In this document: piece after piece, positions 26,231 through 28,372 of the stretch
Layout of the letters: each line of letters opens with the position of its first letter
Position numbering within the stretch: the stretch's first letter is position 1
DNA from: Chryseobacterium gleum
Lineage (GTDB): Bacteria > Bacteroidota > Bacteroidia > Flavobacteriales_F > PHOS-HE28
Assembly (NCBI GenBank): GCA_945872795.1
Contig: CAMCAZ010000005.1
Coordinates: 22,999-86,998, forward strand
Direction: 5' to 3'
DNA: 64,000 nucleotides
Position numbers and translations under genes: made by a program
Notes under the pieces: generated by a model
The model's input: the letters and a program-made list of their open reading frames with translations, nothing else
What the model was told of the DNA's origin: nothing
Database searches by the model: none

Positions 26231-26761
26231 TCACTTCACCTGCCAACGCTGCACCGTGGCCATCGCATCGGCCTTGCCCTTCACGGCGATCAGTTCCGCA
26301 CCGTCCTCGGGGTCATAGTTCAGCAGCCAGGTCACGAGGATGTCCCGCGCTGCTTCGGGCAGTTCGAGGAGGTCGTCCGCATCCACGGTACGGAGCGCCG
26401 GGTCCACGGGTAGGGCGATCAGCTTGTCGTCGCGCTCACCGGCATCGAGCAGCTCGATGATGCCGATCGCTTCCACTTCCAGCACGGTGCCGCTGGGTAA
26501 GGAGCCGCAGAGGACGAAGACATCCACCGCGTCGCCATCGCCACCCTCCTCCTTGTTCATTTTGGTGCCCGGGATGAAGCCATAGTTGGCGGGATAGGGC
26601 AGGAAGCGGATCATGCGGGGCACCCCGTTGCGCAGGTCGATAGGGAAGCTGTTCGTTGCCGGGTCGTACTGCCGTTTCTCCGCACTGCCGGCCGGGATCT
26701 CGATCACTGCGTTCAGGATGCCGGGACGGGCCAGGGGGGCGAGGTTCTCCAAGTCGTTCAT
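26231..26761 (-). CDS. ppa: Inorganic pyrophosphatase (family I)
   Basis: Soluble Mg-dependent enzyme that hydrolyses pyrophosphate and so drives biosynthetic reactions. At 176 residues it is the bacterial hexamer size. Visible are VIEIPAGSAEKRQYDP, RFLPYPANYGFIPGTK, the signature DGDAVDVFVL with the metal-binding aspartates, VEAIGIIELLDAGERDDKLIALP and a C-terminal GKADAMATVQRWQ. Its upstream region holds copy A of the duplicated leader (26804-26866), starting 42 nt before the ATG, so its expression may be coupled to that of the T9SS cargo gene behind it. The two are separate units because a terminator-like hairpin lies after the cargo gene. Confidence 0.94.
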   Translation of the reverse strand: MNDLENLAPLARPGILNAVIEIPAGSAEKRQYDPATNSFPIDLRNGVPRMIRFLPYPANYGFIPGTKMNKEEGGDGDAVDVFVLCGSLPSGTVLEVEAIGIIELLDAGERDDKLIALPVDPALRTVDADDLLELPEAARDILVTWLLNYDPEDGAELIAVKGKADAMATVQRWQVK

Positions 26762-26803: not shown

Positions 26804-26866
26804 GTCGGTTCACTCTCATACACGGAGCCGACCGCCGCGGGGTTGGGTGCGACCGAAAATTAATCC
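26804..26866 (-). promoter_or_regulatory. Duplicated leader, copy A (upstream of ppa)
   Basis: Read on the minus strand: TAATTTTCG (-7-like), 4 nt, CACCCAACC, 16 nt, CGTGTATG. It aligns without gaps to copy B at 28310-28372; over the 59-bp core I count 45 identities concentrated in three blocks. A hairpin (26804-26832) has stem GTCGG/CCGAC, five pairs, and loop CTCCGTGTATGAGAGTGAA. In copy B the loop differs at one base while the stem differs with partly compensating changes. It is either a transcribed RNA leader downstream of the -7 box, or an ECF-type promoter with -35 ACCCAACC and -10 CGTGTATG. Confidence 0.6.
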
Positions 26867-26885
26867 ACCGGCCATCCCCGAACGC

Positions 26886-26917
26886 AGTAGCGCCCCGCAT
26901 TGCTGCGAGGCGCTACT
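26886..26917 (-). terminator. Hairpin after the T9SS cargo gene
   Basis: AGTAGCGCC and GGCGCTACT form a 9-bp perfect stem with a further GCA/TGC pairing inside the loop. It lies 20 bp after the stop codon of the Cys-repeat protein. There is no long T-tract, as is frequent in this phylum. Confidence 0.6.
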
Positions 26918-26936
26918 GGAAGGATCGGACGGCGGA

Positions 26937-28289
26937 TCAATCCGCTTTCACGAACCGGATGCTGATGTTGTGTCCTTTGCTGTCGGTGGCGCGCAGGGTG
27001 TAGATGCCGGCCGGCAGGTCGGTGGTGTCGAAGCGGTTTTGGCTGCGGCCGGCGTTCATCGTGCGGCTCTCCTGGCGTACTTCGCGACCGTTCACATCGA
27101 AGAAGCTCACGCGCAGTAGGCCGTCAGCCGTGGCTACCAGCGCCAGGTTCAGGTCGCCATTGCTGGGGTTCGGCCAGATGGCGGCATTCGTCAGCTCCTG
27201 CATCTCAGTGATGGAGGTGGTCAGCGGGTTCTGCACGTTCAGCGTGAAGCCATCGGTGCGCTCCGTGTTCGCCAAGTGGTGGCCACCGAGCACCATGCCG
27301 TTCAGCGTGCCGTTCTCGCCGATCGAGATGGTATCGCAGGAGGTGCTGGTGCAGCCGCTGGCATCCGCAATGGTGAGGCAGAGCAGGTAGGGGCCGTTCT
27401 GGCTGTAGGTGTGCGTGGGGAAGGGGTCAGTGCTGCTGGTACCGTCACCGAAGTTCCAGAGATAGGTGAGCGCGCCATTGCCGGTGCTCAGGTTCCACAC
27501 CCACACTTCGTTGGGCACGGGCAGGCTGTCCTGGCCATAGGCCTGGATCACCCAGAAACCCGCCTGGCAGGGCAAGCCGCCACCACTGGTGCAGTTGCAG
27601 TTGGCGTCCCAGGTGCCGATGAAGTTGGTGCCAGGCGTCCAGCAGGGCGTTCCGGGCAGGTTGTCCCCGTTCAGTACGCCGAGGCAATCATAAGCGCCGC
27701 CGGTGGTGTCGGAAACACAGATGCAATCAGGGCTCCAGAAGCCGCTGACACCGGTGGCCGGGTTGGTACAGGGCATGCCGGGCATCGCAGGACCGTTGGG
27801 TACGCCCTCGCAGTCGACCACGGCATTCAGTTCACATGTGCAGTTCGTGCTCCAGACACCGGCCAGGCCAAGTGCCGTGGTGCATGCGGTGCCGGGCAGC
27901 GCACTGCCACCGGGCACTCCCAGGCAATCGGGTGTGCCGCCACCACCGCAATTCAGGACCACCATGATCGAATCTGAACCGGAAGGGTCCACCTGGTACT
28001 GGCCCACTGCGGTGAGCATGGCGCCGTTGCAAGCCACATTGAACGTGAAGGCGCCACCAGGGCTCTGCATCCAAGCCACGGTATCAAAACCGCAGTTCAC
28101 GAGGTCGAGCGTGTAGCTCCAGGAAGGTTGCGTCCCGGGCATGGACGCGATGGTCACCTGGCTGTTGGGCATGCATCCCTGCACCATGCCGGTGATGAGG
28201 ATGGGATAGGGAGGTATGGGCTGTGCGAAGGCGGCCAGCCCAAAGAGGGTGGCGGCTGCGAACAGCATGGAGCGGAATGCGTGTTTCAT
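26937..28289 (-). CDS. T9SS-sorted surface protein with Cys repeats and PKD domain
   Basis: Predicted secreted surface protein of 450 residues, function unknown. A Sec signal peptide ends near FAQP (residues 21-24). Three Cys repeats of about 33 residues follow at 121-153, 159-191 and 201-233, each of the form DCxGVxxG, PGxxC, GxWxxxCxC (for example DCLGVPGGSALPGTAC). A PKD domain follows at about 260-322 (TYLWNFGDGTSSTDPF, THTYSQNGPYLLCLTI). The last 85 residues are a type A T9SS sorting domain (AIWPNPSNGDLNLAL, FFDVNGREVRQ, LPAGIYTLRATDSKG). It is thus a likely client of the PorV-PorU system encoded upstream. Leader copy B lies just before it. Confidence 0.87.
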   Translation of the reverse strand: MKHAFRSMLFAAATLFGLAAFAQPIPPYPILITGMVQGCMPNSQVTIASMPGTQPSWSYTLDLVNCGFDTVAWMQSPGGAFTFNVACNGAMLTAVGQYQVDPSGSDSIMVVLNCGGGGTPDCLGVPGGSALPGTACTTALGLAGVWSTNCTCELNAVVDCEGVPNGPAMPGMPCTNPATGVSGFWSPDCICVSDTTGGAYDCLGVLNGDNLPGTPCWTPGTNFIGTWDANCNCTSGGGLPCQAGFWVIQAYGQDSLPVPNEVWVWNLSTGNGALTYLWNFGDGTSSTDPFPTHTYSQNGPYLLCLTIADASGCTSTSCDTISIGENGTLNGMVLGGHHLANTERTDGFTLNVQNPLTTSITEMQELTNAAIWPNPSNGDLNLALVATADGLLRVSFFDVNGREVRQESRTMNAGRSQNRFDTTDLPAGIYTLRATDSKGHNISIRFVKAD

Positions 28290-28309
28290 GGTCGTGAGGT
28301 TCGGTTATC

Positions 28310-28372
28310 GGGCGTTCACTCACATACACGGAGCGTCCCCTTGCCGGGTTGGGTGGCCCACGAAATTAATCC
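28310..28372 (-). promoter_or_regulatory. Duplicated leader, copy B (upstream of the T9SS cargo gene)
   Basis: Minus strand: TAATTTCG (a -7 box), CACCCAACC, 16 nt, CGTGTATG, with the hairpin at 28310-28338: stem GGACG/CGCCC (four of five pairs) and loop CTCCGTGTATGTGAGTGAA. The 3' arm ends 20 nt before the ATG at 28289. Spacing between all blocks equals copy A except that the -7 box is one base shorter. Confidence 0.6.

Follow-up and report, generated by a model that had tools for sequence, protein, structure and literature searches.

In the 64,000-nucleotide stretch of DNA analyzed here (the window), two matching stretches at 26804-26866 and 28310-28372, both on the minus strand, are very likely promoters for one ECF sigma factor. 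We infer the binding of this sigma factor, the start site, the signal and present activity from features that sequence comparison has established, namely the element, its spacing, its targets, its linkage with the sigma gene, a deletion, and the absence of the sigma gene from the window's own genome. It is the rigid layout of the element, together with the linkage of the motif to the sigma gene and the targets, that leads to this reading. The gene order in the window is pheT (plus strand), ppa (minus), a T9SS cargo gene with PKD and Por_Secre_tail matches (minus) and hutU (minus). The position and strand of both copies given in the initial annotation were confirmed, with the 19-mer CTCCGTGTATGWGAGTGAA occurring exactly twice in the window, where 0.02 occurrences are expected at up to three mismatches. 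Pfam likewise agreed with its naming of a pyrophosphatase and a surface protein behind the two copies. The former is ppa, an inorganic pyrophosphatase (26231-26761, minus strand; PF00719), and the latter, cargo1 (26937-28289, minus strand), has a PKD domain and a type A sorting tail (Pfam PKD and Por_Secre_tail, TIGR04183 above the cut-off) and is the predicted target gene of the promoter at 28310-28372. Beyond the 19-mer, the two copies agree at 76% of positions in a 59-bp alignment.

Across 45 genomes of the genus, the element reads CACCCAACC-N16-CGTGTATG with small variations. ACCCAAC and CGTG are invariant in 49 genus sites, and ACCCAAC and CGTGTA are invariant across 32 aligned sites. The 16-base spacer between the boxes is fixed in length and random in sequence, carrying little information in the logo of the 49 genus sites. 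A spacing of 16 was observed in all 26 different sites from loci that had not been fetched with the motif, and none was found at N8-15 or N17-24. A weight matrix built without the own-genome sites gave scores of 52.3 (ppa side) and 51.6 (cargo side) for the window sites, and nothing else in the window scored above 1.8. The same logo revealed an A/T tract that stands out at -13 to -8 (up to 0.95 bit at -12 to -9), about 8-16 bp upstream of CACCCAACC, and TGAAC at +37 to +41 (0.8-1.4 bits). The A/T tract and TGAA, neither of which was used in the query, recur in an independent set of 37 AT-rich sites including Saprospiraceae. What had been described as a conserved 19-nt loop is in fact CGTGTATG plus TGAA, with variable bases between. 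ECF promoters are characterized by an AAC-containing -35 element, a CGT-containing -10 element and a fixed spacing of about 16-17 bp, and CACCCAACC-N16-CGTGTATG has exactly this layout. Fixed boxes at a rigid 16-bp spacing around a random spacer therefore point to the anatomy of a promoter rather than that of an RNA leader.

The proposed promoter would consist of a -35 element CACCCAACC, a 16-bp spacer and a -10 element CGTGTATG, with the A/T tract upstream and transcription starting at the conserved TGAAC. On the ppa side, reading along the minus strand, these parts are the A/T tract TAATTT at 26857-26862 (seen in the logo and in the 37 AT-rich sites), the -35 element at 26841-26849, the -10 element 16 bp further on at 26817-26824, and TGAAC at 26808-26812, with a predicted start region at ~26809-26811. 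On the cargo side, also on the minus strand, the A/T tract lies at 28363-28368, the -35 element at 28347-28355 (found by the pattern search, the weight matrix and the 32-site alignment), the -10 element at 28323-28330, and TGAAC at 28314-28318, with a predicted start region at ~28315-28317.

Further copies were reached through genome searches within the genus, after which the hutU-ppa region of relatives was read; there, the element precedes T9SS cargo paralogues. Sites at up to two mismatches are present in 43 of the 45 genus genomes, and the genes that follow the element at a distance of 20-45 nt encode PKD adhesins secreted by the T9SS, or lipoproteins. The suggestion of the initial annotation that the copies form a shared regulatory module thus held, given the many further copies in related genomes. 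The 19-mer occurs at only two places in the 3.3-Mb own genome at up to three mismatches; with the spacer left free there are four sites at up to one mismatch, two of them in the window. The product behind the third site has a weak match to the T9SS sorting tail (Por_Secre_tail at 20.4 bits, below the Pfam cut-off), and the fourth site precedes a lipoprotein gene. A scan of 85,000 species yielded 39 exact stretches, mostly from this genus and before cargo genes; of the remainder, some precede secreted proteins in Saprospiraceae/Chitinophagales and others lie inside unrelated genes. Exact matches inside Burkholderiales pheT and in Pseudomonas, Alistipes and Verrucomicrobia were judged to be chance. 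In a class-wide exact search with a variable gap, the N16 form was confined to this genus; a different genus gave two N20 matches, which have one identical sequence in common and were set aside.

The form ACCCAACC-N16-CGTGTA was found in 19 of 120 Saprospiraceae genomes, while a reversed-pattern control gave a handful of matches. The motif precedes an orthologous ECF sigma gene in eight of the loci read, in most cases followed by an anti-sigma-like gene (the Saprospiraceae protein examined at L136 had no Pfam match), and many other Saprospiraceae loci carry it before adhesins. T9SS sorting tails were detected on three adhesins from the wider Saprospiraceae/Chitinophagales group. These data bear on whether the boxes are functionless and reflect mere shared ancestry of tandemly duplicated cargo genes. 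Both window copies are indeed derived from the leaders of tandem paralogues; however, the boxes have stayed invariant between spacers that diverged, and they are also found in front of unrelated lipoprotein genes and, in Saprospiraceae, of sigma operons, which makes this explanation very improbable.

To identify the candidate sigma factor, seven Saprospiraceae sigmas were placed in a tree, in which they form one clade, and a profile of these sigmas was then searched in relatives of the window genome. The search revealed an ortholog inside the hutU-ppa island of the relatives. All sigma orthologs read carry GTSKWH in the recognition helix, versus TSKS or TSRS in the own-genome paralogues. A genus profile detected the sigma in 40 of 45 genus genomes, 35 of which have a co-directional site 1.2-5.5 kb upstream of the sigma gene. 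Among the strong sites (at most one mismatch) of the genus, 43 of 59 lie near the sigma gene, and the presence of sites is associated with that of the sigma across the genus genomes (p=0.033). Five sigma-bearing genomes have no strong site, and G017, which like the window genome lacks the sigma, keeps one good site, before a lipoprotein gene. The other sigma-less genus genomes are G009 and G038, which have no sites, and G030, which is an incomplete assembly. The same promoter-sigma linkage was observed in four genomes reached via the Saprospiraceae/Chitinophagales matches. Thus, the element precedes the gene, or the gene run, of its candidate sigma in Saprospiraceae and in genus relatives; in the window genome, profile searches of the whole assembly (rated 100% complete) found no ortholog of this sigma.

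Pfam and NCBIfam assign the protein as a general ECF sigma, and NCBIfam Sigma_PG0214 is under the cut-off both for it and for the own-genome ECFs. The own ECF genes at C56, C8 and C32 were considered as candidates and rejected, because the GTSKWH ortholog lies in the relatives' islands and these genes score far lower; no autoregulation sites were found upstream of the own ECF genes. In G010 and G044, the sigma gene is adjoined by one for a protein of 555-561 aa with a membrane stretch and an S/T-rich linker, both seen by reading the sequence, and a C-terminal OMP_b-brl_2 barrel, identified by Pfam. This putative anti-sigma is predicted to span both membranes.

The linkage also argues against an alternative in which a DNA-binding regulator uses the element as its operator, behind a primary-sigma promoter that has the A/T tract as its -7 box (TAATTTTC versus TAnnTTTG). 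The tract, which the initial annotation had taken for a -7-like box, does look like one in some copies, the two fixed boxes could be half-sites, and an operator could account for continued expression of the genes where the sigma is missing. However, the tract is not consistently TAnnTTTG over the 49 genus sites, the two boxes are not repeats of each other, they resemble ECF promoters in spacing and in CGT/AAC content, and the motif keeps company with the sigma gene. We therefore regard the operator as improbable and favor the ECF sigma promoter.

The arrangement of the window becomes understandable upon comparison with relatives such as G010, in which the order is hutU-cargo1-promoter-cargo2-sigma-anti-sigma-ppa-pheT. 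The ppa leader of the window is nearly identical to the cargo2 leader of G010 over 147 bp, ending after GAGTGAAC. Past this joint (26807-26808), the window reads in frame TDTSTPTAPSQPAPSP-MNDLE, while G044 has a lipobox ...LLVGC followed by TDVPSPEAAP-MTNLE; the window sequence thus corresponds to what follows the lipobox cysteine in the relatives' ppa. Because the leader match ends after GAGTGAAC and the ppa sequence begins past the lipobox, the difference is most simply explained by one deletion, which would have removed cargo2, the sigma, the anti-sigma, and the ppa signal peptide with its lipobox cysteine. That the module is common to two seemingly unrelated genes follows from ppa having ended the ancestral cargo2-sigma-anti-sigma-ppa run. 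As this event placed the cargo2 promoter in front of ppa and took away the sigma gene, both window promoters are probably orphaned. Their intact boxes in a sigma-less genome imply that the sigma was lost not long ago, that another sigma acts, or that the assembly is faulty; they suggest a recent loss, and a faulty assembly seems less likely since the flanking gene order is otherwise conserved. The ppa of the closest relatives (L038, L039, L037, L040, L044 and L045) begins with a predicted lipoprotein signal, so that their pyrophosphatase may work outside the cytoplasm; comparison of the N termini indicates that this signal is gone from the window ppa, lost in the deletion. An inverted repeat, AGTAGCGCC...GGCGCTACT (26886-26917), which follows the stop codon of the cargo gene and precedes the promoter on the ppa side, is conserved in G010; it has no T-run and is possibly a terminator.

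The deletion also accounts for the hairpin on which the initial annotation had based a structured RNA leader, that is, a transcribed hairpin with a conserved loop that regulates the downstream genes. All five pairs of its stem are perfect in the ppa copy, and the cargo copy forms four of them. Over the 49 homologous sites, however, pairing was found in 41% of cells versus 36% by shuffling, and the full five pairs formed at one site, the ppa copy. The 32 aligned sites gave 41.9% versus 36.5%, the counts of changes on both sides were near the shuffle level, and a stem slid by one column did nearly as well. RNAalifold consensus folding predicted no pairs and an Rfam search of the window gave no match. 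The sites thus show no covarying helix of the kind expected for a structured cis-regulatory RNA. The CCGAC arm sits at the deletion joint, where the intact G010 leader has CGCCC, unpaired; the stem in the ppa copy exists because the deletion placed CCGAC beside the box. With its 3' arm created by the deletion and its 5' arm falling upstream of the predicted start, the covarying hairpin is a coincidence and an RNA leader is extremely unlikely. Two copies with a chance stem can mimic a covarying RNA when one of them sits on a deletion joint.

We propose that the element is read by the ECF protein whose recognition helix carries GTSKWH, a Bacteroidota sigma that in relatives is encoded just downstream of the adhesin genes it would control and beside its putative anti-sigma. 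A surface or envelope signal would release the sigma, which would then turn on the adhesin-sigma-anti-sigma run along with some distant genes, few in number. The deletion in the window genome brought the cargo2 promoter to ppa, with loss of the sigma gene. More tentatively, the system might be a self-sensing circuit for surface display, in which the promoter drives the T9SS adhesin, the sigma and the anti-sigma in both membranes, and the barrel reports adhesin export or surface contact back. The window genome would then be a natural knock-out that has kept its promoters and handed one to ppa.

A comparable system is Das/Dma of Bacteroides thetaiotaomicron, an ECF21 sigma with a dual membrane-spanning anti-sigma that, according to the available text, was studied for vesicle formation (PMC13088901). 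Both systems pair a Bacteroidota ECF sigma with an adjacent anti-sigma that has a membrane helix, a long low-complexity linker or tether and a C-terminal beta-barrel (PMC13088901), a plan recognizable from sequence in G010 and G044. Unlike Das/Dma, for which the text available in PMC13088901 contains no promoter motif, the system here is tied to T9SS adhesins and has a promoter of defined consensus, and its likeness to ECF21 is one of the anti-sigma plan. The SM6 promoter class of Flavobacterium psychrophilum, inferred to be of the ECF type and carrying a CGT box at -10, is described before T9SS genes and an ECF/anti-sigma pair (PMC9723704). It shares these traits with our element, the comparison in sequence covering the -10 box; its targets include the T9SS machine parts GldN and PorU, whereas those here are cargo adhesins (PMC9723704). 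Another ECF sigma, SigP of the Porphyromonas gingivalis SigP-PorXY regulon, acts on T9SS machine genes that are subject to a two-component system (PMC4800418). T9SS genes would be under ECF sigma control here as well, but the SigP motif given in that source, C(T)AAA(G/C/T)A(T)A(C)T(A/G)A, is unlike our boxes when compared by eye (PMC4800418). Among the matches listed in a literature search for CACCCAACC, all were unrelated, and the consensus does not appear in the accessible text of PMC9723704 or PMC4800418. The consensus, its regulon and its link to this sigma appear to be unreported in the searchable literature.

Few Bacteroidota ECF promoters have a defined consensus, and little is known about the direct target promoters of dual-membrane anti-sigma systems. 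Comparative genomics here links a sharp 17-base promoter with a sigma and the adhesins that it targets, in no fewer than two lineages (this Flavobacteriales genus, and Saprospiraceae/Chitinophagales), so that a pattern search is enough to list the regulon of any genome.

Several observations were made among the putative targets. A second target family (L084, L094, L103 and L109) comprises lipoproteins of 315-334 aa, and a Pfam search with L084 gave no match. In one Saprospiraceae genome, G425, the promoter is followed in about five places (L218/L226, L227, L228 and L198) by a repeated sequence, TTGAAAGCAAGAAAAAATGTTGTTCTAAA..., with no obvious gene directly after the promoter; candidates for this repeat, which the same sigma may govern, are a small RNA, a mini-ORF and a mobile repeat. 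In the hutU-ppa island, the number of tandem cargo paralogues varies (L066, L067, L068, L076, L077 and L080), as do the copies of their cysteine-containing "DCLGVPGG.ALPGTPC" module, suggesting fast turnover of these surface proteins.
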